Positions 1-41,027 of a DNA stretch of 64,000 bases are shown here, piece by piece. Within the stretch, counting starts at the first letter, position 1. Every line of letters begins with the position of its first letter. The notes below the pieces were generated by a model, which was not told the origin of the DNA, searched no databases, and worked only from the letters and a program-made list of their open reading frames with translations. Source of the stretch: Terriglobus roseus (GTDB lineage Bacteria; Acidobacteriota; Terriglobia; Terriglobales; Acidobacteriaceae); assembly GCF_900102185.1 (NCBI RefSeq), contig NZ_LT629690.1, positions 682,001 through 746,000 on the forward strand, written 5' to 3'. The position numbers were made by a program, and so were the translations under genes.

Positions 1-2816
1 AGGACATTGTTTGCAGCAATGGACTCGTGCTGTTAAACAACACGTCGACATCAAGCTCCACGCCGTTTACTGCTTCTAGCTCGTATGCGTTTCCTTACGA
101 CATCGCCAGTGGCAGCCCAGGGCCCAACCTTGCGCTTGGAGACATTAACAAGGACGGCCGCGTGGACCTTGTTGTGGGTGGTGGCGGCGTCGTGCACACG
201 TACCTCGGCAAGGGCGACGGCACCTTCACTCCCGGCCAGAGTTACGACTCCATCCCGTCGATTGGCTTTGTCACGATTGACGATCTCGACGGCGATGGCA
301 ATGCCGACATTTATGTCGGATTGGGAAACAACGGCGTCGATGAAGGCGATGGGTATTTCAACAATATGTCGTACGCCCTGATGGGCAATGGTGACGGCAG
401 CTTTCAGGGAGCGTACTCCGGTAGTGCAACGTATAACGGCACGAATATTGGTGATGTGAACGGAGACGGCATACCAGACATGGTGGCCGCGACGAGCTCT
501 CAGGCCAACAATGGATTCTTTGCCAGTTTCACTGTTCAGCTTGGCAATGGTAAGGGAGGTTTTACTGCTGGCTCTGCTGTGCCGCAGCCGGGAGCCTTTT
601 CTCTGAATGGTTATAGCTTTGCGGCAGGTAGTCTTTCAACTGCGCAAGTGCCTACCTATGCCCTTGGCGACATCGATGGCGATGGTAAAGCTGATCTTGT
701 ATTTATCGCGAATGGCCTGACTGCAACGAGCAGTGGTGGCTCTCTCGTTACGTATCCATATCCGGTGTACTTCACCGCTCACTCAAACGGCGACGGCACG
801 TTTGCTACGCCGATGCCTTATGCCTTCCCGCAGATTGCTCCTGCGGCTGACTTCGACAATCAGCTGTCGGTGACAAATCTCCAACTGGTGGATGTGACCA
901 ACGACGGCAAGTTGGATTTGGTGGCGAGTTACAACGCTATCGCTGGAACTGCATTTGGACAGCCTCCGGTCAATCCATACCAGGAGGGGATTGTTGTGCT
1001 GGCCGGAACGGGTACGGGCACGTTCAGCACTACACGAGTATTGACAAGCGTTTACTCAAGCACGACTGCACCGACCACTGCAGTTGTGCCTTACGTGGCA
1101 GGGCATGCCGACCTGAACGGCGATGGCAAGAACGATCTGATTGTGTACAACAGCACCTTCGCTGTTGTGAACGGCACGGGTGTAACGACTACGACGTATA
1201 GTGCCTTTTTGAGCAATGGTGACGGAACCTTCGCGGCACCTACTGTGCTGGCAACCGCAGCAAAACTAAACGACCTGACCATCAATGACTTCAATAATGA
1301 TGGACATCCTGATGTCGCGTACGTTGCTGAAGCGGTGAACGGTGGCCAGGCGACACTCAACATCGTTTTGGGTAATGGAAACGGTGGTGTTGGAGGGAAT
1401 CATTCCTACAATCTGAGCGGTGGAGACGCCGTAATGATCGCAGGCCTTGCAGCGGCTGACTTCGATGGCGATGGCAAGGCAGACCTTGCCTTGATCGGCA
1501 GCAATATCGTAAGTGGTGTGTTTTATGGCAACGGTGACGGCACATTCACGAACGTTGTGAGTAATAACCTTTCCTATCCGCGTGACCTCATCAACCTTTC
1601 TGGCGGTGGCGCTTCAACCGCTTTGGATTTGAATAAGGATGGGAAGCCAGACATCCTTACAGGCAGTACTGTGTTGCTGAATATGTATGGCTCCGCTCCA
1701 AGCCTGCTTGCAACGACGGCTACAGCACTCACAGCAAATGCATCAACCATTCCTGCAAACGGATCGGTTGTACTGACCACTACGATCACGTCAACAACTG
1801 CCGGGGCGCCGACGGGGACGGTGAAGTTCCTGGATGGATCGAACACTCTTGGTGTGGTGACGTTGGCTTCGGGAAGCGCTTCATTGACAGCGAAAAATCT
1901 AAGCGTTGGTTCGCATTCGATTACCGCTGTTTATTCAGGCGATAGCACATATGCCACGTCGACATCTTCGATTGTGACCTTGGCGGTTACGGCATCTGTA
2001 CCGACCATTGCAACCACCACAACCTTGACCGTCTCAGCCTCAAATGTGTTCGCTGGAACGAATGTTTCGTTTTCGGCTACTGTGGCGCCTGCCAGTGGTA
2101 CTGCAATACCAACGGGGGCGGTAACGTTCACCGATGGCTCTACAACGCTGGGCACTGCAAACCTGGATGCAACAGGTAGGGCGACCTATTCGACGGCAGC
2201 GCTTACTGTAGGCTCACACTCTGTGGTCGCGTCGTATGCGGGTGCCAGCACTTCAGCGGCGATCTTTACAGCGTCGGCTTCGTCGGCGGTTGCCGTGACA
2301 ATTACTCCCCCAGGGTTCACCATTGCGTTAGCTCAAAGCACGAGCACCGCTACGCGTGGTTCATCCGCTACAAACACTCTGTCCATTACGCCTGTGGGCG
2401 GATTTAATGCGGTGGTTAATCTGACCTGCACCGGCGCGCCCTCTGGTTCGACATGCACGATCAATCCTGCTTCTGTTACGCCGAATGGCTCGACTGCTTC
2501 GACTGCAACGATTACCTTGCAGACGAGTGCCAGCGCCTCCATTCGGTCTGGATCTTCTACTGTCTTGCTCTCTTTGCTCGGTCTTCCAGCAATCCTCGGG
2601 ATCGGTGTTTCGTTCACCCGATTCCGTCGCCATGGTTTCCGACTACTCGCGTTTAGCTTGCTCTCCATGCTGTTCGTGTTACCGGGCTGTGGCAGTAGTA
2701 CTCCTAACGGGAGCTCTACCGGCAGGGCTACGACAGCTAACCTGACGATCACTGCCACTTCATTAGGAGCCTCGCAGCCTCCAACTCCACTGACATGGAG
2801 CGTCAACATCCAGTGA
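1..2816 (+). CDS. FG-GAP/VCBS repeat surface protein with Ig-like domains, 5' truncated by window edge
   Basis: The reading frame is open to the first base of the window (codons from base 3 read DIVCSNGLVLLNN), so the N-terminus lies outside. About the first 560 residues are FG-GAP/VCBS repeats with calcium-binding-like signatures such as DINKDGRVDL, DLDGDGNADI and DFDGDGKADL, which in this family form a beta-propeller. Two Ig-like repeats follow (about 565-660 and 665-765), then a GFTIAL-type domain ending near 850. The C-terminus is a hydrophobic segment (LLSLLGLPAILGIGVSF), an Arg-rich stretch, a second hydrophobic segment ending in the lipobox-like LPGCG, and a short Ser/Thr tail. This is an exported, probably surface-attached protein; ligand unknown. 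Confidence 0.85.
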   Translation, partial: DIVCSNGLVLLNNTSTSSSTPFTASSSYAFPYDIASGSPGPNLALGDINKDGRVDLVVGGGGVVHTYLGKGDGTFTPGQSYDSIPSIGFVTIDDLDGDGNADIYVGLGNNGVDEGDGYFNNMSYALMGNGDGSFQGAYSGSATYNGTNIGDVNGDGIPDMVAATSSQANNGFFASFTVQLGNGKGGFTAGSAVPQPGAFSLNGYSFAAGSLSTAQVPTYALGDIDGDGKADLVFIANGLTATSSGGSLVTYPYPVYFTAHSNGDGTFATPMPYAFPQIAPAADFDNQLSVTNLQLVDVTNDGKLDLVASYNAIAGTAFGQPPVNPYQEGIVVLAGTGTGTFSTTRVLTSVYSSTTAPTTAVVPYVAGHADLNGDGKNDLIVYNSTFAVVNGTGVTTTTYSAFLSNGDGTFAAPTVLATAAKLNDLTINDFNNDGHPDVAYVAEAVNGGQATLNIVLGNGNGGVGGNHSYNLSGGDAVMIAGLAAADFDGDGKADLALIGSNIVSGVFYGNGDGTFTNVVSNNLSYPRDLINLSGGGASTALDLNKDGKPDILTGSTVLLNMYGSAPSLLATTATALTANASTIPANGSVVLTTTITSTTAGAPTGTVKFLDGSNTLGVVTLASGSASLTAKNLSVGSHSITAVYSGDSTYATSTSSIVTLAVTASVPTIATTTTLTVSASNVFAGTNVSFSATVAPASGTAIPTGAVTFTDGSTTLGTANLDATGRATYSTAALTVGSHSVVASYAGASTSAAIFTASASSAVAVTITPPGFTIALAQSTSTATRGSSATNTLSITPVGGFNAVVNLTCTGAPSGSTCTINPASVTPNGSTASTATITLQTSASASIRSGSSTVLLSLLGLPAILGIGVSFTRFRRHGFRLLAFSLLSMLFVLPGCGSSTPNGSSTGRATTANLTITATSLGASQPPTPLTWSVNIQ

Positions 2817-2946
2817 CGCCTGTGAAGAACAGTGTCTGAAATGGAAGGTCGAGAGTTTTCTACGATACGCAGAGATAGTTAAGACACAATTGACAACACA
2901 GCTGCTATGCCTTCTACGGTTGATGCTACCTATGTTGTTGATTTAT

Positions 2947-2992
2947 TTGGTGGACCTGAGCGGGATCGAACCGCTGACCTCCTCGTTGCGAA
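2947..2992. other. attL: duplicated 3' half of tRNA-Ala
   Basis: These 46 bases are identical to 40951-40996. They cover the CCA end, T-arm, variable loop and anticodon loop of the tRNA-Ala on the minus strand. Identity stops abruptly at 2993 (a versus c), and no complete tRNA can be drawn here. This is therefore the distal attachment site rather than a tRNA gene. Confidence 0.9.
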
Positions 2993-3071
2993 AACGCTGG
3001 GCAACGTATTTGCAACAACTTAGCTATACGAAACAAAGCAGTTTTAGGCACTAAAAAGCGGATCGAAATCC

Positions 3072-3108
3072 TTATTGGCCCCTTATTGGCCCCAGATTGG
3101 CCCCACGC
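3072..3108 (+). repeat. Putative integrase arm-type sites, left end (three copies)
   Basis: TTATTGGCCCC occurs at 3072-3082 (preceded by c) and 3083-3093, and GATTGGCCCCACGC at 3095-3108. The same motif in the same orientation occurs twice beside attR (40883-40897 and 40913-40927), and the longer form shares the ACGC extension. Short direct repeats on both flanks of attP are what tyrosine integrases of the lambda type bind with their N-terminal domain. That function is inferred. Confidence 0.6.
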
Positions 3109-3219
3109 TGGTACTTAATCCGCATCCACGCGGCATGACCGACAAGCCAGCTTTTCCGTTAGAGGGTTCAACAGAACCCACAAATCCTATTTCCTCAAAC
3201 CAACAACACATCTCCGATA

Positions 3220-4956
3220 ATGGCATTCGAGCAATTGACAGATACTCCCTCCCCCTACATACCATCCACCCCCTTAATGGTCTCTCCATCTGTACCGGAC
3301 TTGTCACCACCTCAGCCGCCGACCGCCCAAATATCTTCAGATCAGCCGGCAGCACCCGAAACTTCGCACAACGATGTATTTCGCCAAGTGGCTAAGGCAT
3401 TGATGGGACACGAGACCTCCTACTCCGTTGATGACAACGGCAATACCGTTGCCACCGAATCTCCAACAGTTCCTGGCCATTTCTTCAGAAATATCGTCAC
3501 CGCAGCACTTCTGGGCGGTGCCGCGGGAGCCAATGGCAATCCTGCTCAAGGCTTCTTTGGCGGAGTTGCTCGCGGTGGCGCCGCGGCCGTGAACGATTCC
3601 CGCCAGCAGGATTTGCTAAAGCGCCAGGAAGCCGAAGAGGAATTCCAGAACAACCAACGTTCCCAGCAGATGCAGTTGGAGAAGAATCGCGACCAACGTG
3701 AGCAGGACGCTTTCGCCACTCAGGAGACTTTGCGCAAGGCACAGGTCGCGCAGGCTAACTCGGAGACACTCCGTCTGAACATGTTGACTCAGGGCGCGGA
3801 TTTCGAACAACACGAGAAGACGGCGGAACAAGGTAAGCAGCACTTCTCCGACTTCGATGCCGCTGGTCTCGCGCCTGTCTTCAAAGGCATCCCGGAAACC
3901 GAGATGCAAGACCTCATCAAGAATCGCCCTGGTGCCTCCTCTTTCGATTGGGAGGCCACAGGTGTGAAGCTGGCTACCGGGGCCGATGGCAAACCGACCT
4001 ACCAGTACACATATTCCGCCTACGACCCGAAGGGCAAAGTGCCTGTGTCACAAGACACCATTGACCAGTGGAAGAAGGACGGGATGGACAAGTATTATCC
4101 CGAAGTCTTCAACATCCTGAAGCCCGGCAAGGAAATTGACGCAACACATTACATCGAGTTGAAGCGCCTCGACTCGAAGCTATTCGGCGACAACCTTGTT
4201 CGTCAGAAGGCCGACGAGCAAACGCAAGAGTTCAAATCCAAACAGGCTCTCGCTGCGGCGCAGACCGCGCATGCTTGGGCGGAGACAGCCGCGGCCCGGA
4301 AGCAAATGGAAATGGCCGGACTCGCTCTCAAGCAACAGCAGATGTTGCCGAAAGCACTGAAGGCCTTGACTGATTCCGGCGGTGACTTCCAGAAGCTGGA
4401 CGCAGGCGACAAGGTTGTTATCGGCGAGTCGCTCGGCAAGCTAATCGAAGGGGCCGAGAAAACCGTACATGATGTCCTCACCGCTGATCCCTCAGACAAG
4501 AACAATTACGCAGCAGAAGCAATGAGACAGATTGGTCAGTGGCGTGGTCTCGTAAATCAAGCGTTCACGGTATCCCAGAACCGACAAGACCGATTTGACA
4601 TGGGTCTAATCGATAAAGGCCTCGGCGTTTTGGGCAGGATGTCAAAGGCAGATGCCCTGGCTGCAATCAACTCCTCCAAGTCCTACACAAATGCAGAGAA
4701 GATGGCGCTTCGAAGCGCTATCAATAAGACACCTGCCACGTTTAGCTTCAATGGTCAGACATTTGCGAACATTCCTCCCGGCAAGGTCGCGCTGTTCCTT
4801 CAAACACACCCAGGTGCAGAGCAAGTCTCTGAGCCAGAAGATGGACCACAGCCCGGCGACAACAGCAGTTCGCAGTTCTATCGTGGAATCAGGCGATCTT
4901 TGGCTCCGACCCCTGACATTTCCGCACCCGCAGAGGCCGGGGCATTCGGTGGCTAA
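3220..4956 (+). CDS. Large coiled-coil protein, phage-like, function unknown
   Basis: 578 residues. The N-terminal 50 residues are Pro/Ser-rich. Then comes a small-residue-rich, possibly membrane-active stretch (IVTAALLGGAAGANG followed by a GG-AAA-rich segment, about 90-125). A long Gln/Glu/Lys/Arg-rich coiled coil follows (about 130-200), a globular middle, and a second Ala/Gln-rich helical region (about 330-380). No enzymatic motif is visible. Size and style resemble internal virion or ejection proteins of tailed phages, but that is only an analogy. It is the first gene inside attL; no strong ribosome-binding site was seen before the ATG. Unknown function. Confidence 0.55.
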   Translation: MAFEQLTDTPSPYIPSTPLMVSPSVPDLSPPQPPTAQISSDQPAAPETSHNDVFRQVAKALMGHETSYSVDDNGNTVATESPTVPGHFFRNIVTAALLGGAAGANGNPAQGFFGGVARGGAAAVNDSRQQDLLKRQEAEEEFQNNQRSQQMQLEKNRDQREQDAFATQETLRKAQVAQANSETLRLNMLTQGADFEQHEKTAEQGKQHFSDFDAAGLAPVFKGIPETEMQDLIKNRPGASSFDWEATGVKLATGADGKPTYQYTYSAYDPKGKVPVSQDTIDQWKKDGMDKYYPEVFNILKPGKEIDATHYIELKRLDSKLFGDNLVRQKADEQTQEFKSKQALAAAQTAHAWAETAAARKQMEMAGLALKQQQMLPKALKALTDSGGDFQKLDAGDKVVIGESLGKLIEGAEKTVHDVLTADPSDKNNYAAEAMRQIGQWRGLVNQAFTVSQNRQDRFDMGLIDKGLGVLGRMSKADALAAINSSKSYTNAEKMALRSAINKTPATFSFNGQTFANIPPGKVALFLQTHPGAEQVSEPEDGPQPGDNSSSQFYRGIRRSLAPTPDISAPAEAGAFGG

Positions 4957-5273
4957 TCCTTTCTGGAATGAGCAATAACAACTCGAGAAAATAATGTCGG
5001 AATACGTGGACTAAGTCTTGTCTATTGCTTCTGATAACGATGCGTAGTCACCCCGTCCAAGCTCTCTAGCCCTAACTGATTTCCTCTCCCCTAGGAGTTG
5101 GTTTTTCAACTTTCAAGGACGAGGTTTGATTTGGATGCGGTGAAGAGTGAGGACCAAAATCTACAACGAACGGGTTCACCGCCGTCGTGCTTCAACGATT
5201 TCTTGTCCTTCGTAAATTCTGTTTGCAAAATTACGACTTGATGGATACCCTCATGTCTCGACGAGGACAATTC
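4957..5273. other. Intergenic region, nothing recognised
   Basis: The 317 bases between the coiled-coil protein and the secreted Ig-like protein hold no convincing coding region, RNA or repeat. An in-frame extension upstream to 5187 exists, but the ATG at 5274 is better supported. Confidence 0.4.
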
Positions 5274-6026
5274 ATGTCATCGACTGCCAGGCTCTTCATC
5301 TCTTTCCTCTTTGTGGCACAGGCCACCGGCCAAGTGACGGATCTGAGGATCGAACCTCAACAAGTCGACGCTGGAAGTGCGGCGACGCTCCGCTGGAACC
5401 TCAAGGATGGTCAGGCCGCTTATATTCTTGGAGTTGGGGAGATAGCTGGCAGGGGCTCGATTCAGGTACGGCCACGACAAACCACAGCTTACACGCTACT
5501 AGTAATGTCGCAAACGGGAATAACTTCCAAGTCAGTGGAACTCGAGGTCAAAAACGCGGCGCGCGGCGACGACGACACCTGTTCACCTAGACAATCCGAC
5601 TATAAGTATCCGAAGACATTTACCTCAGCGGATACGTCGATCATTTCGGCTCTAGGCAGTATTCACCGAGTGTTGCAAGATCAAATGGGCTTGGTCGTAA
5701 GCGAAATTCAGACGCCACCATTGAAGCCTCACTTCTTCTTTAGTACCAATTGCGCTATCAAGGGCAATTTGGTCTTTCCCGGTGATGCGGCAACCTTTCC
5801 GGAAGACAAACACATAGGAGCTCGAAGAGTTTCCTATCAGGTTGAAATCTCAGAATCCTCTAGCGCGCGCAATCCCGGGCAACCACCCGAGTTGGGATAC
5901 AGGATAAGTACGTTCATTCAATATAGGAGAAAAATAGAATCGACTTGGCGAATCGAGCAGAATGAAACTGCATATGAGAGAGCCTCAGAGATGTTGCGGG
6001 GCTCGCTGCCATTCCTACATAACTAG
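5274..6026 (+). CDS. Secreted protein with one Ig-like domain, function unknown
   Basis: Start chosen at ATG 5274, with gagg 8-10 bases upstream. The first 20 residues (MSSTARLFISFLFVAQATGQ) form a Sec signal peptide. Residues about 22-95 look like a bacterial Ig-like domain of the ATLRWNLKDGQ...TTAYTLLV type, similar in style to the repeats of the chromosomal gene at 48419. The remaining 150 residues (Cys at DDDTCSPRQ and STNCAIKG, possibly a disulphide) resemble nothing I recognise. It heads a tight operon with a four-helix membrane protein (18-bp gap) and the caspase/deaminase-like protein, which suggests an extracytoplasmic partner role. Confidence 0.7.
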   Translation: MSSTARLFISFLFVAQATGQVTDLRIEPQQVDAGSAATLRWNLKDGQAAYILGVGEIAGRGSIQVRPRQTTAYTLLVMSQTGITSKSVELEVKNAARGDDDTCSPRQSDYKYPKTFTSADTSIISALGSIHRVLQDQMGLVVSEIQTPPLKPHFFFSTNCAIKGNLVFPGDAATFPEDKHIGARRVSYQVEISESSSARNPGQPPELGYRISTFIQYRRKIESTWRIEQNETAYERASEMLRGSLPFLHN

Positions 6027-6044
6027 GCTTCAGAGGGGAACGCA

Positions 6045-6470
6045 ATGAAGCGTCTGTCGGCTGCATCCGCAAGAGCCATATTGGCTGCGATCTGGGCGGC
6101 GTCTTTTCTCATTAACCTCACCATAGCCCTTTGTCTCTATTTGAATCATGATATTGGGGACGATAACTTTGAAAAGCTGACGACAACGCTGAATTCGTCT
6201 TACGTTACATACTTGGCTGCAGTCATTGGATGCTATGTGATCGTCTATACCAAGAAGCCAAAGACATCACTTAATCCGGGATTGTTCGTTGTGGCTTTGG
6301 TTTCCTCTCTCCTTTGGAATGGTGTTCTGAGTGCGTTTGTCTGGCCTCTCATCTTTGAGCGGGGAACCGTTGAGGGAGCAATTAAATACATCGGTTATTT
6401 CGCCCCTTTACTTTCCTGGATTGTGGCGCCGATTTTCACTGTATTTTTTGTGAAGAATGCTACGGAGTGA
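6045..6470 (+). CDS. Small integral membrane protein, four predicted helices
   Basis: 141 residues with four hydrophobic segments at about 10-32 (AAIWAASFLINLTIALCLYL), 52-68 (YVTYLAAVIGCYVIVYT), 79-102 (LFVVALVSSLLWNGVLSAFVW) and 118-137. Preceded by a strong Shine-Dalgarno (gaggggaa). It lies 18 bp after the secreted Ig-like gene and its stop region overlaps the leader of the caspase-like gene, so the three are almost certainly co-transcribed. Family not recognised; it could anchor or transmit a signal for the exported caspase-like protein. Confidence 0.75.
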   Translation: MKRLSAASARAILAAIWAASFLINLTIALCLYLNHDIGDDNFEKLTTTLNSSYVTYLAAVIGCYVIVYTKKPKTSLNPGLFVVALVSSLLWNGVLSAFVWPLIFERGTVEGAIKYIGYFAPLLSWIVAPIFTVFFVKNATE

Positions 6471-6475
6471 CATCG

Positions 6476-8890
6476 ATGCGGCGAATCTGTCCCGAATCCT
6501 TGTTCGGAATCCTCTTCCTTGCTATATGTCTGACTTTGGCTACTCCGGTTTACGGACAGGGTGCGAAGGGATATGCAATAGTGATTGGTCTTTCCGATTA
6601 CCCACTTTATCCTCAAGACCGTCAGATTCATTTCGGAAAGAACGACGCAATAGAATTCGCTAAGTACCTTAAGACTGCGCCGGGCGGCACGTTCGACACA
6701 ACCTTGCTTGTTAATTCGGAGGCGACAAGATCAGGCATCCTAACCGCAATTAAAAGCGTGGGAAAGGTCGCATCCAACAATGACCTCGTCTATATATTTT
6801 TTGCGGGACACGGTGCAGTTGACGATTCGGGCCAAGCGTATTTCATGCCGTATGACGCAGACTCAAAGTTTCCGGAAGGTCTTGGCATTCGTATGGACGA
6901 ACTCCTGGGGGATGTTGCAAAGAATATATCTTCAAACGTCGTATTTTTCATTGACGCATGTCATGCCGGAGCAGCGTTGCAGCCGGGGGCAAGAGGGGAT
7001 GAGAATGTTGTACCAAAGCTGACTGAGGAGTGGACAAGGGCGTTCAAGTTCAAAGGTGACAATCTGCTTTCGATGGGGTTTTTCGCTGCTAGTAGTAACG
7101 AAGTGTCGTGGGAAGATTCTGTCGCGGAACACGGTCTCTTCTCCGAATATCTATTGGAGGGAATTAAGGGAGCAGCGGACACAAATCCAATGGATGGCAG
7201 GATAACCGCCCAAGAACTATTTAGATATATAGAGCTTCATGTCCAGGCCGAATCGAAACGTAGGTTCAAATCGCAAAACCCCTTACGTTCCCCAATCTGG
7301 GTTGGTGACTTTCCGTTAGCACTGTATCCACCAAACCTGAAGTCACGAGCGGAGACGTTATCGGGCCACGTCAAAGGGAATCATCCGGACGTAGCCGCGA
7401 ATCAAGCTGAGTTGGCTCAAGCACACACCGAACAACGACTTGAGACGATAAGACGGGAACGTCCACTTCTCAGGCAGTTTATTCGAGAAATGCCCAAGGG
7501 AGCAGATCTGGAGACCCATAGCAGTGGATCTATCTCGCCAGAATTATGGATCGATTGGGCAGTGAAAGACGGTTTGTGCGTCGATTCCAAGACCTCTACA
7601 CTTCTTCCTCCGAGCGCAACGAACCGGTCTGGGCGGCCGGTCTGTGCTGAGGGAACCGTCGCGGCAGAATCAGCTTACAACGACGTGCGACTTTATCAAT
7701 CGATGGTCGATGCTTTCTCTATGCGCAAGTGGAGGCTGTCGGGTGAATCGGCATACGACCACTTCAATAACACGTTCGCTAAATTTAGCGGGGCCAGTCG
7801 ATCCCTCGGACGGATTTTAGCGGAGATGTCCAAGCGGGCGGTCAGCCAACACGAAATTTACCAAGAGATTCTCGTCACGCCTTCGATTCCAGTGGCGATG
7901 CTCCGTTATCTCAACTCCAATAGTGTGTTGAGCGATAACCCAAGCATTGAGGAGCTGGCACGCGTTCACAAGTTACTTAAAGAGAATGGCCTTGTAGAAG
8001 GTATGGCGGAGGCGATCGAGAAAGTTAACGAAGCAGAATCAGAACGGGATACTATTTTGCGTTGCAAATCTTCCACACCTGATCCAGCTTGTTCAGTTAA
8101 GCAAAGGTATCAATATCAGGTTCTCAGATCATCAATCACGTCTCAAGTGTACCCGCAAATGGTAATGGCGTTTGAGGTGGCATCTGTCGACCCACGGTTT
8201 ATAGGAATTGGTGTTGCTCAGCCGGAAGGGACCTATCATTCAATCCACGATTTTCAGCCGCAGATGCGGATGTTTGGATACCTACACACAATGTATCCTC
8301 TCGTTCGCATTGGCATCTCAGCCGGTCAATTGAGTGATGCATATTCGGACTTGTCCGATAGTTCTCATATTAGGGACGCAATTGAGATCGGGAAGGCCTC
8401 GAGGATCTCTCATGGGACATCATTGCAATATGAACAAAATCCTGAAGAACTTCTAAGATTTCTCAAAGAGAGGAAAGTTCCGATCGTCATAATGTTAACC
8501 AGCGACGATCTTCTCTTGGACGTGAAAGGAGAAGATCATCCTTTTCGTTGGTATTTAGAGAGAGGAGTTCTTCTTGCACTTTCCACTAGCGATGAAGGCG
8601 TTCTAGGAACTAATCTCACGCAAGAGTTCGCACGTGCCGTAGAATCCTACGGTTTGAGTTATGGCGAACTTAAGACACTGGCACGAAACAGTCTCACTGT
8701 AAGCTTCTTGGCCGGTGAGAGCCTTTGGGCAACACCTTATCAGGCGATCACAGTAAAGGACTGCGAGGGCGATATTCCGGGAGCTCCAAATCCTTCTATC
8801 AGCTGTGCTCAATTCCTTAGCAAGAGCGATAAGGCCAAGCTTCAATGGCAACTTGAAAGCCAGCTTCTGAAATTCGAAGCTAGTTTTTAG
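6476..8890 (+). CDS. Exported caspase-like (C14) protease fused to degenerate adenosine deaminase-like domain
   Basis: Start at ATG 6476 (ggag 9 bases upstream); the GTG at 6467 leaves no room for a ribosome-binding site. 804 residues. Residues 1-28 are a Sec signal peptide ending PVYGQ. Residues about 32-285 are a caspase/metacaspase domain with the catalytic pair His112 (FFAGHGA) and Cys162 (FIDACHAG). Residues about 328-800 follow the ADGF/ADA adenosine deaminase pattern: MPKGADLETHSSG, DAFSMRKW, SRISHG, ALSTSDEGV and LKTLARNSL. Key ligands are changed: HxH is E346/H348, HAGE is SAGQ (615-618), and the metal Asp is Ser705; H646 of the SHG motif stays. Deaminase activity is therefore unlikely, and a nucleoside-sensing role is inferred. 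Last gene of a three-gene operon. Confidence 0.85.
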   Translation: MRRICPESLFGILFLAICLTLATPVYGQGAKGYAIVIGLSDYPLYPQDRQIHFGKNDAIEFAKYLKTAPGGTFDTTLLVNSEATRSGILTAIKSVGKVASNNDLVYIFFAGHGAVDDSGQAYFMPYDADSKFPEGLGIRMDELLGDVAKNISSNVVFFIDACHAGAALQPGARGDENVVPKLTEEWTRAFKFKGDNLLSMGFFAASSNEVSWEDSVAEHGLFSEYLLEGIKGAADTNPMDGRITAQELFRYIELHVQAESKRRFKSQNPLRSPIWVGDFPLALYPPNLKSRAETLSGHVKGNHPDVAANQAELAQAHTEQRLETIRRERPLLRQFIREMPKGADLETHSSGSISPELWIDWAVKDGLCVDSKTSTLLPPSATNRSGRPVCAEGTVAAESAYNDVRLYQSMVDAFSMRKWRLSGESAYDHFNNTFAKFSGASRSLGRILAEMSKRAVSQHEIYQEILVTPSIPVAMLRYLNSNSVLSDNPSIEELARVHKLLKENGLVEGMAEAIEKVNEAESERDTILRCKSSTPDPACSVKQRYQYQVLRSSITSQVYPQMVMAFEVASVDPRFIGIGVAQPEGTYHSIHDFQPQMRMFGYLHTMYPLVRIGISAGQLSDAYSDLSDSSHIRDAIEIGKASRISHGTSLQYEQNPEELLRFLKERKVPIVIMLTSDDLLLDVKGEDHPFRWYLERGVLLALSTSDEGVLGTNLTQEFARAVESYGLSYGELKTLARNSLTVSFLAGESLWATPYQAITVKDCEGDIPGAPNPSISCAQFLSKSDKAKLQWQLESQLLKFEASF

Positions 8891-9073
8891 CCGACGCATA
8901 ATCTTCCGATTGGATTGGTATATCAACTGCGCCTAGCAGTGTTGTGGGACATTGGAAGCTAAATCGAATTTATCCCTGCCTTCGCTCGGCATGAATTCGC
9001 GTGCTAATATTACAAATTTCACGCGTCCAGGAGATATCAAGTGCGAAGCTTTGTTACCGCTTTCTACATCGCC

Positions 9074-9574
9074 TCAAATAGGTTCGAGCTTGATGTCTGT
9101 ATCCGCCGAATGGAAGCTAAGATGAAGACCCGCAGGAAAACCTTCGGTTCCGGCAATGAGGAGGAGTAATGCTGGAAGATGATGCCGCGACCCCCTGAAA
9201 ACGTTCCTGATGCTTAGCTGATCCGATCGAGACGGAGAGGGAATTTTCTGAGGGTGAGTGTGCCAGTCACCGATGAAGAGAAGACCCTCCTTAAACATTT
9301 CATTGATCTCATTTTGCTCTTTTGTGTGATCAGGAATGTAGCCATAGCGAGTCCGATGATCGGTCGGTCTCGGGCCAGTTGCTCTCAGAATGGAAATGCA
9401 AGAAGGACTGATACGTGCGAAAAGCTGGCCTCCGGCCTCATTGGCAAAAGGGGATGTTTGCTGATGCTGCACTATGTGGTTCAGGACGCAAGGGCTGATG
9501 GAGAGTTGCTGATCCCAATCTGGGATTCGGAAATGGAGCTTTCGTCGATACTTTTTGAGGAACAGGCAGGACAC
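9074..9574 (-). CDS. JAB/JAMM metallopeptidase (deubiquitinase-like)
   Basis: 166 residues with a complete JAMM zinc motif: Glu46 (NEAGGQLFA), His105 and His107 (GDWHTHP), then Ser115 and Asp118 (SRSD), fitting HxHx7SxxD. In the family this removes ubiquitin-like modifiers or processes precursors. The start is a GTG with ggag 11 bases upstream; the gene overlaps the 3' end of the E2-E1 gene by 94 bases in another frame, so translation is probably coupled. It is the last gene of the MBL/E2-E1/JAB operon, equivalent in role to Cap3 of type II CBASS. No CD-NTase is present. Confidence 0.88.
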   Translation of the reverse strand: MSCLFLKKYRRKLHFRIPDWDQQLSISPCVLNHIVQHQQTSPFANEAGGQLFARISPSCISILRATGPRPTDHRTRYGYIPDHTKEQNEINEMFKEGLLFIGDWHTHPQKIPSPSRSDQLSIRNVFRGSRHHLPALLLLIAGTEGFPAGLHLSFHSADTDIKLEPI

Positions 9575-11355
9575 TGCTCATTTTTCTCCCAGTTGATTTC
9601 AGTTTGCAAGCCACCAGTTGCCCGCTCTGCATATCCTTCAATCCAATTGGGGTTCCATTCTCCCCCCGCGCTCTTGAGAAAAGCAGTCGTCGTCTGTGAA
9701 ACGCGATGCACTGAACGCTTTGCGGGATCAATTAAGGCCTCAATCGCAAGGCCGGATGCCAGCGAAATAGTAGCCTGGAGTTCAATGAAGCCGTAAGGCT
9801 GGAAAACGGCCCCACAAGCGGGCTCCGTCAGTTCTCCGTCCCGCGAATCCGTCCAGATTGTCACATTCGTCTTCAATGCACCCTCTGTCGTCATGCCGCA
9901 TTGTAAGCATGGCGATTGCGCGCAGAGAAGCACCGCATGACCGGCACAGGCGTGCGGTTCGGTCCAGGTAAAAATCAAAGGCGCGTCAATCTCACCGCGA
10001 ATCCTCTGCGCGTTGAGAAGGTTCTCTGCCGTCCAATTGGCCGTGGCACTGATGATGAGCGATGCGCTTTGCAGTATTTCTAAATGCCTGAAGATGAACT
10101 CTTGATAGCTGAGATCGAATCCACGTACGGTCGCGTGAGGATGATCGCGTTGCAGCCTGCCCGCCATTCCGATCGCTTTATTCGTGCCGATGGATTCAGC
10201 GCCAAGTGGATGACGGCCAGTGTTTGCAGCCGTCAAAGCTTCTGGATCGATTATGTCGATACGTCCAACGCCTGCCTTCGTAAGTTGCTCCGCGATCGGT
10301 GCGCCCACAGAACCACAACCAATAACGATGACGTGCTTGAGCGCGAGAACTGGCTGATGCGGGTCGTGCCCACGTCCGTGAATCCAGTTTGCATCGACGC
10401 GGTCGATTCGAAGGCGTTGGGCCTTTACTGAAGACGAGAAGAGTCGCGCGGCAACAACCGCTTGCGGCATCTTGCCCTTCCTGAACCCATTCAAAGTTCC
10501 GTGCTTCCGAAATGTTCTGATCTCCGGAGTTTGTGGAGGCTGAGAAGAGACAGCTGCGAAACAGGGGCCGTTAGCTCCAGTGGCACCCAGAACAAAGTAA
10601 TAGGTTGACAGCTTGAGACGACTAAAGCGCTCCAGAAGCTCTTTGCCGTTGGAGACCATTCGGGCCAATGCCACTAAGTCGCTTGCTGAGCGAGGGAATT
10701 GATTTGGGAGAAGGACCTCTGGGAGCCAGAGTAGGCACGCAGGGACAGTCTTATCGAATTGGGGCTTGTTGCCCCACCGATGGCGCTGCCAAGTTAGAAC
10801 CTGTGCTTCGGACTCACCAACGATGCTCCGTGTCTCTCCCGGCCAAATACGGACAAATCTACTCGGAGCATTCGCATTGAGCAGGCTGAAGACCGATGCC
10901 GCATCATCCTCAAGACTGAAGTTCCAATAGGAGTAGAACTCCGCTTGAAAGTCTTCCAGGTTCAGACCGAGTTCACCCCGGCGAATTAGATCGACGACCT
11001 GCCCCAAGAGAACGCCGAGAACATCAGCCGGTTCGTTGGGCCGTAAAATGCGGTTCGTTCGCCGAAGACAGAGATTCCCATCTGGTTCGACATGAGGCCA
11101 TGAGGGAAAAGTTGGGACATCGGCCAGAAGGAACTTAGGTAGGGAGTACGGGAACTGGTGATCTACGATGACATGGCAGCGATAGACATTCTCTTCCGGC
11201 TGTACATAGAACTCCCAGCCCTCAATTGGTTCACGCGGGGCGTGTTTATTCAGTTCAGCTTTGGAGAGGCGACGTGCACACCAAGTTGAGGTTAAGAAGG
11301 CATCCGCTTTCGCAATGCCTTCCTCCTGCATTCGCCGTGCGATGCCTTCAGGCAT
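9481..11355 (-). CDS. E2-E1 fusion (ThiF-family ubiquitin-activating/conjugating-like enzyme)
   Basis: 624 residues from the ATG at 11355 (ggag 9 bases upstream; ATGCCTGA overlaps the MBL stop). A start at 11415 is possible. N-terminal E2-like domain (about 1-150) with candidate catalytic Cys96 (PDGNLCL). A linker domain follows, then an E1/ThiF adenylation domain with the nucleotide loop VIVIGCGSVGA (about 342-351) and candidate E1 Cys514 (EPACGAVF). Zinc-knuckle cysteines are C483/C486 (CLQC) and C595/C598 (CPAC). Architecture matches Cap2-like enzymes that conjugate a target's C-terminus or a ubiquitin-like protein in antiphage operons. The substrate is not evident, because no ubiquitin-like gene is adjacent. 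Confidence 0.88.
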   Translation of the reverse strand: MPEGIARRMQEEGIAKADAFLTSTWCARRLSKAELNKHAPREPIEGWEFYVQPEENVYRCHVIVDHQFPYSLPKFLLADVPTFPSWPHVEPDGNLCLRRTNRILRPNEPADVLGVLLGQVVDLIRRGELGLNLEDFQAEFYSYWNFSLEDDAASVFSLLNANAPSRFVRIWPGETRSIVGESEAQVLTWQRHRWGNKPQFDKTVPACLLWLPEVLLPNQFPRSASDLVALARMVSNGKELLERFSRLKLSTYYFVLGATGANGPCFAAVSSQPPQTPEIRTFRKHGTLNGFRKGKMPQAVVAARLFSSSVKAQRLRIDRVDANWIHGRGHDPHQPVLALKHVIVIGCGSVGAPIAEQLTKAGVGRIDIIDPEALTAANTGRHPLGAESIGTNKAIGMAGRLQRDHPHATVRGFDLSYQEFIFRHLEILQSASLIISATANWTAENLLNAQRIRGEIDAPLIFTWTEPHACAGHAVLLCAQSPCLQCGMTTEGALKTNVTIWTDSRDGELTEPACGAVFQPYGFIELQATISLASGLAIEALIDPAKRSVHRVSQTTTAFLKSAGGEWNPNWIEGYAERATGGLQTEINWEKNEQCPACSSKSIDESSISESQIGISNSPSALAS

Positions 11356-12580
11356 ACCTGCTATCTCCGCCTTTGGAGACAGGCTCCGATGATGCGGCTT
11401 TTCGTGCGATTTCATCCACCAGAGACTTTGTCATAACGTACGGCGCTTCAACGACCGCGCCACGGACAGACTTCTTTAGTTTTTGGTCCATGACCGTGAA
11501 TTCAAGTGGCTCAGGGGTCTTCTCATTGGGGCTTTCCCCCGTGCAAAAGAACTCGCCTTTTGCGTCACTTATAATGCCCTCGTATTCCTTCTTAGCCGCA
11601 TGCGAAGGGGGATCGCACTCGTCGTCCTTTATCGGGCAACTGCTGGACACAATACGTCCTCCGTCACGAATCTGAGACAAGGCGTTCTTCGCATCGGTAG
11701 AGACCTTGGCTTTGTCGCCGAGTTCAGAACGGCTGTCCCAGGAGAGCGTGTGCCACGAGCAATGATGGGGAGTTTCGAGCAAATCGTACTCTAGGATAGC
11801 GGGTGTATTTTTGTGTTTTGCCCATAGCTTTTCCCAGATGAGAACCTCGGCATCACCGCCATTGATGTAGTTCTTGATCGTTTTACGTGCTCCGCTATCA
11901 GCAAGCTCCATGTTGATGATGACGCTTGAGTGATTCTTGCGGAGCTTTTCTTCTTCCTCGTCATCGTCGGACTTCGGAAGTGGCGCCAGAAGCCGCGCCT
12001 TGAAAAGTTTGCTTGTTACCCCATTGACCTTCGTGATGTCTTCGTCGATCTTGACGACGATCTCCAGAATGTCGTCTGTCTTACCGTTTTCATCTTCTCC
12101 AAGAATCTGAATGCGGTCACCCTCGTCAATACCTGCGCACTTCTTGGTGCGAGCGATCTCTACGCGGCGTTTTGCCTCTGAATTGAAGGCCGTAGCGTCA
12201 TCACACAGTTTGTGGTCAGCACTCGCCCGTCGGAAAACGATAGGAGAAGACCATATTTCCTGAATCAGGATGTGCTTTTCCTTGTCGGCTTTCTTGTCAT
12301 CGGCGTAGTCGGCAGGCTTACCGAGATGGAAGTGGTTCTCGATACCGCGGCAATGGTCTTGGTCGGGGTGAGTTAACAGGAAAACGTCAACAAACGGGCG
12401 CCCAGCTTTGTCCTTCTTGAGCCGCGCGCGAAGGTCCTTAGCAACGTCTCGCGTGCTGTCTTTGGGGTCGTCAGCCGCCGCTGTGATGTTGCAATCAATC
12501 AAGATTGTTCGGCCATCGTCAAGGGTGACCAGAGTCATCCCCCCATTTCCGACGGGAAAGAATGTGATCGTAGTTGCCAT
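11348..12580 (-). CDS. Metallo-beta-lactamase-fold hydrolase of a ubiquitin-like operon
   Basis: 410 residues from ATG 12580 (taggag 8 bases upstream); the longer start at 12637 has no support. Early strand motif MTLVTLDDGRTILIDC, then the metal motif THPDQDH (H71, D73, D75, H76), the HxDxDH variant seen in ComEC-like MBL proteins, and a later ETPHHCSWH segment supplying further ligands. First gene of the operon, overlapping the E2-E1 gene by 8 bases. Comparative surveys by Iyer, Burroughs and Aravind reported MBL proteins in prokaryotic E1/E2/JAB neighbourhoods. Its substrate is unknown. Confidence 0.85.
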   Translation of the reverse strand: MATTITFFPVGNGGMTLVTLDDGRTILIDCNITAAADDPKDSTRDVAKDLRARLKKDKAGRPFVDVFLLTHPDQDHCRGIENHFHLGKPADYADDKKADKEKHILIQEIWSSPIVFRRASADHKLCDDATAFNSEAKRRVEIARTKKCAGIDEGDRIQILGEDENGKTDDILEIVVKIDEDITKVNGVTSKLFKARLLAPLPKSDDDEEEEKLRKNHSSVIINMELADSGARKTIKNYINGGDAEVLIWEKLWAKHKNTPAILEYDLLETPHHCSWHTLSWDSRSELGDKAKVSTDAKNALSQIRDGGRIVSSSCPIKDDECDPPSHAAKKEYEGIISDAKGEFFCTGESPNEKTPEPLEFTVMDQKLKKSVRGAVVEAPYVMTKSLVDEIARKAASSEPVSKGGDSRYA

Positions 12581-12661
12581 GCAGGAATCTCCTACGGAAC
12601 TGGCCTCGTCTTCAATGCGGCGGGGTCGTCCCTCCATCGACTAGAATACAGTTACTATACC

Positions 12662-12680
12662 CCATCTAGTTTCTAGATGG
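12662..12680. promoter_or_regulatory. Palindromic operator overlapping WYL start codon
   Basis: CCATCTAG-TTT-CTAGATGG is a perfect 8-bp inverted repeat with a 3-base spacer, lying between the divergent MBL operon and the WYL regulator. The right arm contains the regulator's ATG (12677). Family knowledge: BrxR/CapW repressors bind an inverted repeat in such promoters. Control of both directions is inferred. Confidence 0.65.
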
Positions 12681-13576
12681 TGAGTGTGGAAAAGAGGTAC
12701 GTATTGGAAATCAAGCAAAGAACGCCAGCACGCTGGGGGCAGGAGAGAAGGCTGGAGTTTATCGAGTTCCGCCTACAGTGGGAAGGGCGGGTGAATCGTG
12801 GAGATCTCGTTGACTTCTTTGGTATCTCGATTCCGCAAGCATCAGTCGATTTCGCAAGATACCGGGAGCTCGCACCAGAAAACGCGACTTACGACGTGCT
12901 TGAGCGTGCATACATCGCGAGCAAATCTTTCAGTCCAGTGTTGCTAAAGGTGTCCCCAGACGACTACCTGACCAGGTTGTGGGCAGTTTCTAGTGGCGTC
13001 GAAGCTGAAAATTCCTCATTTCTCGGATGGAAGCCGGAAACGGGTTTAGTAGCTGACCAAGCTCGTCCAGTCGATGGCGAGATTCTTCGGACCATTCTTG
13101 CTGCCACGCGAGATCGGAAGATTGTTCGTATCAAGTATCAGTCCGTCAGTAGTTCGAGCATTTCTTGTCGAAATATCAGCCCGCATGCTCTCGGGTTCAA
13201 TGGCAGTAGGTGGCACGCTCGTGCTTTTTGCCATGAGAGGAACGCGTTTCGAGATTTCGTGCTCGGACGAGTGAGAGAGGCACTTATTCAGGGGACATCG
13301 CCGATCGATCCAGCTTCTGATTCAGACTGGCACAACATGATCGCCGCAGTCATTGTTCCACATCCTAAACTTTCGGATGACCAGCGGCAGATTATCGAGG
13401 CGGACTATTGCATGACAGATGGCAAGCTGATCTTGCAGGTTCAAGAAGCCATGCTCTTCTATAACCTAGAACATCTCGGACTGCTGAACGACACACAGAA
13501 CCTCCGGAAGGGGCTAGCCCTCGCCAACCGATCCGAACTAAAGAGCTTTTACAGAAAACACGGCTTGCTGGATTGA
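12677..13576 (+). CDS. WYL-domain transcriptional regulator, BrxR/CapW-like
   Basis: 299 residues. N-terminal winged helix (about 15-75) with the family pattern FIEFRLQWEGRVNRGDL, then FGISIPQASVDFARY and NATYDVLERAY. A WYL domain (about 135-205) contains IVRIKYQS and the SPHALGFNGSRWHARAFC core, followed by a C-terminal WCX-like part. This family represses defence operons (CBASS, BREX) and is thought to respond to a ligand, perhaps nucleic acid, through WYL. It is divergent from the MBL/E2-E1/JAB operon and shares a palindromic operator with it. If the repressor binds there it would block its own initiation codon region. Confidence 0.85.
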   Translation: MVSVEKRYVLEIKQRTPARWGQERRLEFIEFRLQWEGRVNRGDLVDFFGISIPQASVDFARYRELAPENATYDVLERAYIASKSFSPVLLKVSPDDYLTRLWAVSSGVEAENSSFLGWKPETGLVADQARPVDGEILRTILAATRDRKIVRIKYQSVSSSSISCRNISPHALGFNGSRWHARAFCHERNAFRDFVLGRVREALIQGTSPIDPASDSDWHNMIAAVIVPHPKLSDDQRQIIEADYCMTDGKLILQVQEAMLFYNLEHLGLLNDTQNLRKGLALANRSELKSFYRKHGLLD

Positions 13577-14492: not shown

Positions 14493-14786
14493 CTATGGAG
14501 GGTTGTCCCCATCAGTTGCCACATACCAGGGAACCTTCTTCGACTGAAAGAGGTCAGGGTATCGAGTGGTAAGGAAGCCCAACATGCGCTTTGCGACTCG
14601 GGCGCTATGTTCTACTTCCTTTTCCCACTCTTCTCCCGCAAGCCCATCGCTGTGTGTGGCTTCCCACCGGATGGTGCGCATTCCCAAGATGAGACCCGCC
14701 GTAATAACCAGCGCAGGGCCAAGTTTTTGTTGATCCACCTCATTCCGATATCCGCCGATGTGTGATCCGTTATTAGTGGAAGTCAT
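14493..14786 (-). CDS. Small hypothetical protein coupled to dnaE2
   Basis: 97 residues. The start overlaps the last 14 bases of dnaE2, and an AGGTGA ribosome site lies 5-6 bases upstream, so it is translated with the mutasome genes. It contains one weakly hydrophobic stretch (LGPALVITAGLILGM) followed by a charged helix (EEWEKEVEHSARVAKRMLGFL). Not recognised. Its tight linkage suggests an accessory factor of the imuA-imuB-dnaE2 cassette. Confidence 0.65.
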   Translation of the reverse strand: MTSTNNGSHIGGYRNEVDQQKLGPALVITAGLILGMRTIRWEATHSDGLAGEEWEKEVEHSARVAKRMLGFLTTRYPDLFQSKKVPWYVATDGDNPP

Positions 14787-20532: not shown

Positions 20533-20584
20533 GGCGTCTTCGCCATATATTCGCCTATTGCAGTGGGGGATCGTCAAGTGGGAT

Positions 20585-20604
20585 TTGCACACCCAGATGT
20601 GCAA
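20585..20604. promoter_or_regulatory. Perfect inverted repeat upstream of imuA, candidate damage-response operator
   Basis: TTGCACA-N6-TGTGCAA lies in the divergent promoter region between imuA (minus, 53 bases away) and the proteasome-like gene (plus, 115 bases away). The position suits a repressor operator for the mutasome, perhaps a LexA-type site of unusual sequence. No lexA gene is in the window, so assignment is inference. Confidence 0.5.
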
Positions 20605-20718
20605 TGAGAACGTAAGTGTTGTGAAATAAAGGGGAAATTTTATATGAGCCTTTGACAAAACCCCGCCCTCTGCCTTGAAATCCAAGCCAAACATTTTCTT
20701 GCAGTGGGGTACTAGAGA

Positions 20719-24061: not shown

Positions 24062-24064
24062 GAG

Positions 24065-39435: not shown

Positions 39436-39714
39436 ATGAAGCCGTCTGTCGAACAGCCCACAGCCAACCATCAACAAGCACTCCTGTTGTCCCACCAGTC
39501 TATTGAACGTCCTCTGACTGCCCAACAGCTCGCTCAACTCGTGCCGTTGCATCCTGTGACGCTCCTTCGCTGGGCTCGTGAAAACAGAATCCCACACCGT
39601 CGTCTGAGCGCTCGAAGAATTGTTTTCATACCTTCTCAGATCAACCACTGGCTCGCTTCCGAGTATTCTGAAAGCGTCGGTCATGTCGCCCAACCCGAAA
39701 GGACGGCAACATGA
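39436..39714 (+). CDS. Excisionase-like HTH protein
   Basis: 92 residues with a MerR/Xis-type helix-turn-helix: LTAQQLAQLVPLHPVTLLRW, then ARENRIPHRRLSARRIVF and a closing helix INHWLASEY. Stop overlaps the integrase start (ATGA). In lambda-like systems Xis directs excision by binding the attR arm. It probably also regulates. Confidence 0.8.
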   Translation: MKPSVEQPTANHQQALLLSHQSIERPLTAQQLAQLVPLHPVTLLRWARENRIPHRRLSARRIVFIPSQINHWLASEYSESVGHVAQPERTAT

Positions 39715-40874
39715 ACCTCATCCACAAACGTACGCGCTTTCAGCTTGGCTCTTTGACAACAGAGGGACGGACCAATGGCCCAGCAGTTTGGGTTTATCGT
39801 TGGCGCGAGAAGAGTGGCAACCTTACTGTTAAACGCAAGGTTGTTCTCGGCACCATCAAAGAGCTGAACAAGTCACAGGCTCAGAAGAAGGCCGACGGAT
39901 ATCGCCAGCTTGCTAATACTCCTCAACATGAACGAGGTGCTGATCTAACAGTGAACCAACTGGTGGATCACTACAGCGAACATGAGTTGGGAGTCGGTTC
40001 AGGAAAAGCAGAGAAGCCTCGCAAGGCGTATCTCTATATCTTCAAGAACTACATCTTGCCGACTTGGGGTGAACTACCGCTTGAAGGTGTTAAGGCGGTT
40101 GCCGTTGAACACTGGCTCAAGACGTTGCCGCTAGCTAACGGCTCCAAGGCAAAGGTCAGAGAAGTGTTCGGGGCTGCCTTCCGCCACGCAATGCGGCACG
40201 AGTTGCATCCTGTCAATCCAATAGCCAGTGTTCGACAAGTCAGGAAAAGGGCTATAGAGCCTGAAATTCTCGAACCCGCCGAAACGGCTGCTCTCCTTCG
40301 AGAGCTTGAAGGAGTTGAACCGGTTCGGACAGCATTCCTTATCGCTGCTGTTATGGGTATGAGGCGGGGAGAAATCTTCGGCCTCAAGTGGGCAGACGTG
40401 GATTTCGAACGTGCGATTTTGCATGTTCGACGGTCATACGTCGATGGTGTTGAGGGACCTCCTAAAACAGATTCCTCTCGCCGTCCACTGCCAATTCCAC
40501 AACAAGCCTTGGAAGCATTCAAGGCGTGGAAGGCGAAGGCTACCTATACCTCATCCAGTGATTGGGTATTCGCTTCAAACGTGTCTTTCGGCAAACAGCC
40601 GTATTGGCCGGGGACGTTATGGCGTAGAAATGTGGCTCCGGCAATTGAACGCGCTGGTATCACTAAGCCCAAGCTCGGATGGCATACCCTTCGCCGCAGC
40701 TACGCGAGTTTGCTGTTGTCGAGCGGTGTGAGTCTAAGAGTGAGTATGGAGCTGATGCGGCATTCCACACCGGATATGACGCTAGGCACGTACGCGCAAA
40801 CCGTGGGCAATGAGAAGAGAGACGCAGGCAGCAAGATCGCTTCACTCTTGCTGGGAAGTGAACAAGCAGCCTAG
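39711..40874 (+). CDS. Tyrosine recombinase / site-specific integrase
   Basis: 387 residues. N-terminal arm-binding-like region, core-binding domain (about 80-170), and catalytic domain with Arg218 (GMRRGEIFGL), His325 and Arg328 (WHTLRRSYAS), His351 (LMRHST) and nucleophile Tyr361 (LGTYAQ). Phage-type integrase oriented toward the tRNA-Ala 77 bases downstream, which is its target. Arm-like repeats follow its stop directly. All catalytic residues present, so it should be functional. Confidence 0.93.
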   Translation: MNLIHKRTRFQLGSLTTEGRTNGPAVWVYRWREKSGNLTVKRKVVLGTIKELNKSQAQKKADGYRQLANTPQHERGADLTVNQLVDHYSEHELGVGSGKAEKPRKAYLYIFKNYILPTWGELPLEGVKAVAVEHWLKTLPLANGSKAKVREVFGAAFRHAMRHELHPVNPIASVRQVRKRAIEPEILEPAETAALLRELEGVEPVRTAFLIAAVMGMRRGEIFGLKWADVDFERAILHVRRSYVDGVEGPPKTDSSRRPLPIPQQALEAFKAWKAKATYTSSSDWVFASNVSFGKQPYWPGTLWRRNVAPAIERAGITKPKLGWHTLRRSYASLLLSSGVSLRVSMELMRHSTPDMTLGTYAQTVGNEKRDAGSKIASLLLGSEQAA

Positions 40875-40950: not shown

Positions 40951-40996
40951 TTGGTGGACCTGAGCGGGATCGAACCGCTGACCTCCTCGTTGCGAA
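40951..40996. other. attR: 46-bp core within tRNA-Ala
   Basis: Identical to 2947-2992 and spanning from the CCA end to the anticodon loop of the tRNA-Ala gene. The flanking bases differ on both sides (a/t before, c/a after), which defines the core. Confidence 0.9.
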
Positions 40997-41027
40997 CGAG
41001 GCGCTCTCCCAGCTGAGCTACAGGCCC
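40952..41027 (-). tRNA. tRNA-Ala(CGC)
   Basis: 76 nucleotides including encoded CCA. The acceptor stem GGGCCTG pairs with CAGGTCC and contains the G3-U70 wobble that identifies alanine tRNAs. The anticodon loop TTCGCAA gives anticodon CGC, and GGTTCGATCC forms the T loop. The integration event has preserved the complete gene. Confidence 0.95.

Follow-up and report, generated by a model that had tools for sequence, protein, structure and literature searches.

Background

The best-known role of bacterial caspases is that of executioners inside the cell, coupled to sensors. A survey of caspase homologues in prokaryotes (PMC3501461) counts 112 domain architectures and, in the parts that bear on the present case, reads helices N-terminal to caspase domains as likely signal peptides, so that exported bacterial caspases are not new; the word deaminase does not occur in its main text. 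In the passages of the review PMC9704534 that deal with them, CARF-deaminases and the type III-E caspase are treated as separate effectors, and CARF-ADA/Cad1 (ADA, adenosine deaminase) is described as a predicted ATP-depleting effector. Here we analyze a gene of Terriglobus roseus in which an intact caspase domain is joined in one frame to an altered ADA-type domain. It lies in a window of 64,000 nucleotides, by which we mean the whole stretch of DNA analysed (contig NZ_LT629690.1, positions 682,001 to 746,000 of the forward strand), and all coordinates below are positions in this window.

An earlier reading made from the letters of the window (the sequence-only reading) did not know this layout as a described system, and in the open-access literature searched we likewise found no description of a caspase joined to an adenosine-deaminase domain. 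Export of a bacterial caspase is already known; the caspase/pseudo-deaminase architecture was not found in print. The explanation that we prefer, tentatively and as something just short of probable, is that of an exported caspase module in which the pseudo-deaminase is a recognition or regulatory domain that controls or aims the protease.

A caspase joined to an altered deaminase domain

The span 6045-8890 comprises two genes, one for a hydrophobic protein of 141 amino acids (aa; 6045-6470) and one for the fusion of 807 aa (6467-8890). Together with an upstream gene for an immunoglobulin-like (Ig-like) protein they form a tight three-gene operon on the + strand, with the fusion last. The operon with a membrane protein, as proposed in the sequence-only reading, is supported; the gene of the 141-aa protein and the start of the fusion overlap by 4 bases. 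The fusion is a single stop-free frame in a genome of one contig (4.85 Mb), and the codon-position composition is similar across its two halves. Its N-terminus carries a hydrophobic stretch (aa 7-25, mean 2.09), and by this hydropathy judgement a signal peptide is predicted and the protein is probably exported, at which strength the earlier claim of export can be kept.

The N-terminal half matches the Pfam family Peptidase_C14 over aa 34-272 with an expectation value (E) of 1.4e-15 and 58.1 bits, exceeding the gathering cut-off of 21.4. It carries the motifs GHG and DACHAG, and in an alignment of 28 caspases, the present one included, H115 is invariant and C165 is conserved in at least 90%. 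The AlphaFold predicted local distance difference test score (pLDDT) is mostly above 90 in this half, with a dip at aa 171-200. When Foldseek was queried with the model of the whole fusion, the top matches were GSU0716 (3bij; E 6e-12), MALT1 and then metacaspases, some rows having a large root-mean-square deviation. We take this as placing the predicted structure in the caspase fold and the Peptidase C14 superfamily, and judged by its residues the caspase half is intact and a predicted protease. The top-scoring NCBIfam caspase model is NF047832 ("caspase, EACC1-associated type"), with 66.7 bits under a cut-off of 140.

The C-terminal half appears by homology to descend from the A_deaminase superfamily. 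The Pfam A_deaminase match covers aa 632-749 (E 1.1e-17, 64.6 bits vs a cut-off of 27), and deaminase homology runs from about aa 306 to the C-terminal end, where the long matches listed to stand-alone deaminases share 34-44% identity with this half. In the same genome, the stand-alone deaminase L002 is 42% identical over aa 313-805 and L003 gives a shorter match (36% over aa 633-749); in the family sample, 152 of the 200 genomes, this one included, have a deaminase match. A profile of 21 sequences with the fused row among them (A5) aligned with solved adenosine deaminases at E 3e-21, including HAGE, RIGHG and TDD, with HxH aligned solely in separate weak stretches; the fused protein by itself reached E 5.6e-9.

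For the analysis of single residues, 46 stand-alone homologues were aligned, namely L002, 29 loci from the family scan, 7 from the genus scan, 6 from the class scan and 3 further ones, the duplicate L074 being left out; these are the best-scoring loci and not a random sample. The fusion has E349, S618, Q621 and S708 at four positions that are, respectively, H, H, E and D in every one of the 46 homologues, while H351, H649 and D709 are common to the fusion and 46/46 homologues. By the roles of the residues in mouse ADA, we take the lost sites to be three of the four zinc ligands and the catalytic Glu, and the kept residues presumably include the equivalents of the substrate contacts H17, H238 and D296. 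The marks of an active adenosine deaminase (HxH, the His and Glu of HAGE, and the beta-8 Asp) are thus each broken in the fusion, and by its residues the deaminase half is a pseudoenzyme. It is clear that every lost key residue is invariant among the homologues examined.

These comparisons, with the Pfam matches, uphold the earlier claim of an intact caspase dyad fused to an altered ADA-type domain. That reading had counted four of six key positions as altered; the four losses stand, and by the set of seven positions used here the count becomes four of seven. It had also held that homologues with full metal ligands and deaminase activity would speak against it. The stand-alone paralogues do keep their ligands, yet the claim is not overturned, since it is in the fused domain that these have been lost. 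The caspase with its pseudo-deaminase is thus confirmed as a real observation; its function, including the gating of the protease by the pseudo-deaminase, we infer.

The kept and lost residues bear on two other explanations. The pseudo-deaminase could be a zinc-free purine sensor whose binding of extracellular adenosine, or of a related nucleoside or nucleotide, switches a periplasmic caspase on or off. H349, H618 and D708 are lost, whereas H351, H649 and D709 remain and Q is a conservative replacement for E621. An enzyme that had become a binding protein would be expected to keep the presumed substrate contacts and to lose mostly zinc ligands, as is seen here. However, four positions near the motifs that are invariant in the 46 homologues are also changed (G648S, E674V, N680D and R714G), so the pocket may be remodelled, and the module persists without the deaminase domain in another lineage (see below); we regard the sensor as unlikely. 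Alternatively, the domain could be a hydrolase of a novel type whose altered metal site consists of E349, H351, H649 and D709, since several polar residues remain in the site. Known amidohydrolase-superfamily enzymes need both the beta-8 Asp and the beta-5 His, but in the fusion both are Ser, which makes a new hydrolase very improbable.

As for the recognition or regulatory domain that we prefer, the fused half keeps 82 of the 113 columns for which conservation among the 46 homologues is 93% or more, five cysteines among them. In a tree of 50 sequences its branch measures 1.62 changes per site, compared with a median end branch of 0.17, and its placement is not firm. The kept columns and the similar codon-position composition of the two halves, together with the lack of a stop despite the long branch, fit a domain that has been retained on account of its fold and is not in decay. 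L002 falls within a well-supported genus clade apart from the fused domain; a recent copy of L002 is therefore rejected as the origin, with caution, as the tree program warns that an overly long row may be wrongly excluded from a group.

Distribution of the fusion and a deaminase-free module

Among the matches listed, the fusion was found in 0 of the 199 other family genomes (at most 5 candidates scored in each) and 0 of the 348 other class genomes (2 scored in each), and with all candidates scored and the full list at hand it was found in 0 of the 18 other genus genomes; the three samples overlap. The match lists are sorted by E-value, and a fused relative should therefore rank first. None of 129 matching plasmid records (best 15 of 129 listed) and none of 3 matching phage records covers 80% of the fusion query, and no relatives were found among viral contigs. 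Caspase matches as such occur in 32 of the 200 family genomes, this one included, and within the DNA retrieved around 19 other family caspase loci and 40 loci of the contig scan there was no deaminase match at E 1e-20. A widespread fusion is thus rejected, a single genome having turned up across all of these searches. A conserved system in the form of the fusion is not supported by these searches; the sequence-only reading had named uniqueness to one genome as evidence against itself, and this is what we find.

The fusion was found in a single genome, the branch of its deaminase domain is long (1.62; median 0.17), and it is carried on a mobile element whose guanine-plus-cytosine (GC) content is below that of its flank. 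These points would fit an accident, the caspase having been fused to a deaminase gene whose catalytic site is now decaying without a role. Against such decay stand about 500 codons that have stayed open despite the large divergence and 82/113 conserved columns kept, and the domain does not resemble a recent copy of L002, which sits in its supported genus clade apart, unsure as the placement of the long row is. We consider an accident improbable and hold to a domain retained for recognition or regulation.

The closest caspase among the matches listed in the class scan belongs to G469 (locus L069; 182 bits; next 118), whose contig matches PMUP01000097.1 of a Bryobacterales metagenome-assembled genome (MAG) with identical profile scores. 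Its caspase of 418 aa has no deaminase domain and is 37% identical over 292 aa to that of the window (E 2e-57); the motifs are GHS and DACQSA as against GHG and DACHAG, with the dyad kept. Homologues of both partners adjoin it, an Ig-like protein (24% identity, E 4e-12) and a membrane protein (24% identity without gaps, E 5e-7), in the order caspase, Ig-like, membrane, where the window has Ig-like, membrane, caspase. A profile search of genome contigs gave 40 loci, with the module in one. Because the three genes recur in the MAG with a deaminase-free caspase, the caspase module appears to have acquired the pseudo-deaminase in the lineage of the window, and the domain looks like a lineage-specific add-on. 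Conservation of the fusion together with the two upstream genes, also raised in the earlier reading, thus applies to the caspase and both partners and not to the deaminase domain, which is absent from the MAG.

The N-terminal half of the Ig-like protein is Ig-like (about aa 52-122) and its C-terminal half was found, two weak matches apart, only with the caspase module. The whole protein has matches in 139 of 396 phylum genomes, those listed from outside its own genome lying within positions 23-169 and mostly 50-125. The C-terminal half was found by the class scan in 4 of 349 genomes, namely the two module genomes (G000 and G469) and the weak matches in G366 (E 7e-5) and G106 (E 0.002). Neither of the latter has a caspase or membrane protein nearby, and the G366 match is judged spurious because its frame is antisense to a longer one. 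A known family as the source of the Ig-like partner is rejected, the N-terminal half being common and the C-terminal half having been found in the scans only in the two module genomes apart from the weak matches. A hydrophobic N-terminus is present in the MAG homologue (aa 7-25, mean 2.51), and the Ig-like protein is probably exported. Its AlphaFold mean pLDDT is 36.7, and PHROGs gave weak matches only, the best (E 6e-7) between a virion protein and the N-terminal half. Three stretches of the 141-aa protein exceed the hydropathy threshold, and another is seen by eye around aa 52-68. The protein matched no model of Pfam, PADLOC or NCBIfam, and in the family sample it was seen in 3 of 200 genomes, its own and two with weak matches that contain internal stops. 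Neither partner has a plasmid match.

In a scan of 200 genomes from the family of G469, 148 match at E 1e-20 or better and long-frame caspases are common; G469 itself scores 856 bits by construction, the profile having been built from the window and G469, and the next best among the matches listed scores 154. Some caspases of related genomes show a signal-peptide-like start and repeats by eye, with TPR by Pfam for L103. Two or three caspase genes in a row were seen at marine loci including L096, L097, L100, L113 and L118 (Pelagibacteraceae and SAR116-type contigs).

In the MAG the module lies on the chromosome, surrounded by genes that look by eye like those of a peroxiredoxin, an ABC transporter and a dioxygenase. 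This setting with no PADLOC defence set, and the frequency of long-frame caspases in the family of G469 (148/200), some with a signal-peptide-like start, are in line with a caspase module that serves envelope maintenance, for example the regulated processing of an exported protein, and not defence. The copy in the window, by contrast, is cargo of an integrative element and adjoins an anti-phage gene set, and we find envelope maintenance somewhat unlikely.

The integrative element and neighbouring genes

The operon is carried by a 38-kb integrative element inserted at a tRNA-Ala gene (window 2947-40996) and bounded by 46-bp repeats 38,004 bp apart (Table 1). The operon has a GC content of 48.8%, compared with 53.1% for the element and 58.1% for the flank between 41.1 and 64 kb. 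The element also contains a resolvase at 36091-36849 and, at its left end, an open reading frame of 578 aa (3220-4956) with no convincing family match and a coiled-coil-like middle by eye.

Table 1 Features of the caspase/pseudo-deaminase operon and of the element that carries it.
Feature	Position	Strand	Remarks
Ig-like protein	5187..6026	+	279 aa from GTG; likely start codon 30 (ATG 5274)
Small integral membrane protein	6045..6470	+	141 aa; 3 or 4 helices by hydropathy
Caspase/pseudo-deaminase fusion	6467..8890	+	807 aa; GTG start; 4-base overlap (GTGA) with upstream stop
Predicted signal peptide of fusion	6467..6559	+	About aa 1-31; cleavage site by eye
Caspase (C14) domain	6566..7282	+	aa 34-272; dyad H115 (6809-6811), C165 (6959-6961)
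Pseudo-adenosine-deaminase domain	7403..8887	+	About aa 313-807
Altered positions	E349 (7511-7513), S618 (8318-8320), Q621 (8327-8329), S708 (8588-8590)	+	From alignment with stand-alone deaminases
6A-MBL-type anti-phage set (JAB, E2-E1 fusion, MBL enzyme)	9074..12637	-	Convergent with operon
Tyrosine integrase	39711..40874	+	Phage_integrase, E 1.5e-20
att-like repeat, left end	2947..2992		46-bp perfect repeat of tRNA-Ala 3' part
att-like repeat, right end	40951..40996		Overlaps tRNA-Ala 40952-41027

Downstream of the fusion lies a 6A-MBL-type anti-phage set, of which the MBL enzyme exceeds the cut-off of NF058524 (424.6 bits vs 220) and the E2-E1 and JAB proteins are under their NCBIfam cut-offs, with PADLOC matches to E1-E2 (E 5e-179) and JAB (E 8e-52). 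The 6A-MBL genes run on the - strand, convergent with the caspase operon, which is thus not part of that system. A WYL-domain protein (12677-13576, + strand) is divergent from the set, and at 22763-27831 a KAP NTPase with QatA and PDC-S20 model matches and a BrxC/D-like ATPase possibly make up another defence operon.

The element further carries an ImuA/ImuB/DnaE2-like cassette at 14773-20778 (names by eye); elsewhere in the genome there are two more related DnaE2 genes (96% identity over part of the length, and 64%) and a distant match (30%). Six stretches of 19.9 kb that contain related DnaE2 genes, five from three genus relatives and one from the same genome, have only the ImuA/ImuB/DnaE2 cassette (about 14510-20615) in common with the window. 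Beside the cassette in L164 (genome G194), 1923-9481 holds matches to SspB, SspC and SspD, a ThsA-like protein and a protein DUF262-like by eye (NsnA match), SspA not having been searched for there; 10 proteins were scanned in the slots of L160, L163 and L164. The slot beside the cassette is variable cargo, clearly of defence type in one of the six stretches.

Proposed function

In the explanation that we prefer, the mobile element would carry a three-gene envelope module comprising two exported proteins, the caspase-family protease and the Ig-like protein, and a small membrane protein, all of which may work as a complex. In the lineage of the window the protease would have gained a C-terminal deaminase-derived domain, which would have lost deamination and kept its fold as a recognition or regulatory part, for a small ligand or for a protein partner. 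The pseudo-deaminase would then control or aim the protease in the periplasm, and the benefit, to the host or to the element, might be defence against phage or competitors. The 6A-MBL-type set next to the operon and the Ssp matches in L164, one of the six slots, count in favour of this explanation.

A number of observations weigh against this explanation. The fusion is so far unique to one genome, so the conservation of the pseudo-deaminase cannot be assessed. Loss at the key positions (4/7) compared with the other conserved columns (27/106) gives a one-sided Fisher P of 0.09, and clustering of the losses at the active site is not shown statistically. The AlphaFold pLDDT of the deaminase half is mostly below 60 except at about aa 361-410, from an alignment without deaminase homologues, and because of this poor model the deaminase fold rests on sequence. 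The Ig-like protein of the window has no hydrophobic stretch above the hydropathy threshold, its signal peptide being seen by eye alone, and its export is for that reason uncertain. The remaining points concern defence. Among the neighbours of the MAG module 2 of 9 have PADLOC matches (mad3/mad8 and CARF-LolE models), both ABC-transporter-like by eye and probably generic, and the lack of a defence context speaks against a defence reading there. None of the five other sister slots has a clear defence set: RecD-like matches occur in L160 and L163, with a further match to mad8 in L160, and 9 larger proteins from L161, L162 and L165 gave no PADLOC match. A role in phage defence is thus a matter of association, weakened by both neighbour scans.

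A bolder version, in our view quite far-fetched, would make the fusion a periplasmic danger sensor, in which the zinc-free deaminase domain reads extracellular purines, set free for instance when neighbours lyse or in phage lysis, and triggers envelope proteolysis together with the Ig-like and membrane proteins, the bare three-gene module being ancestral. A probably exported caspase with a dead metabolic enzyme as its C-terminal domain, beside a small caspase module that occurs in two lineages, would carry caspase signalling into the periplasm. It would also allow a clear-cut test of a purine-sensing role for bacterial pseudo-deaminases. Even if the domain is without a role, it is instructive as a case of domain capture on a mobile element.

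Comparison with known systems

The NCBIfam caspase model that scores highest is that of the EACC1-associated type, but the score is below its cut-off and no EACC1 protein was identified among the neighbours of the fusion that were scanned. With CARF-ADA/Cad1 the fusion has in common a deaminase in a conflict-type context and a weak PADLOC match (E 8e-6) confined to the deaminase part. Cad1 carries a CARF domain, whereas the fusion has no Pfam CARF match, is inactive as a deaminase by its residues and is probably exported. The stand-alone deaminases come closer, L002 with its 42% identity, five cysteines in common with the fusion and a signal-peptide-like start by eye, but L002 and the 45 others keep all seven metal and catalytic positions and the fusion does not, and among the matches listed outside the gene of the window no deaminase covers the caspase part as well. 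The bacterial caspase homologues of Peptidase C14 resemble the fusion in the GHG and DxC dyad, the caspase fold and probable export. Where the caspases of related genomes have C-terminal repeats (TPR by Pfam in L103, the others by eye), the fusion has its pseudo-deaminase, and it is partnered with an Ig-like protein and a small membrane protein.

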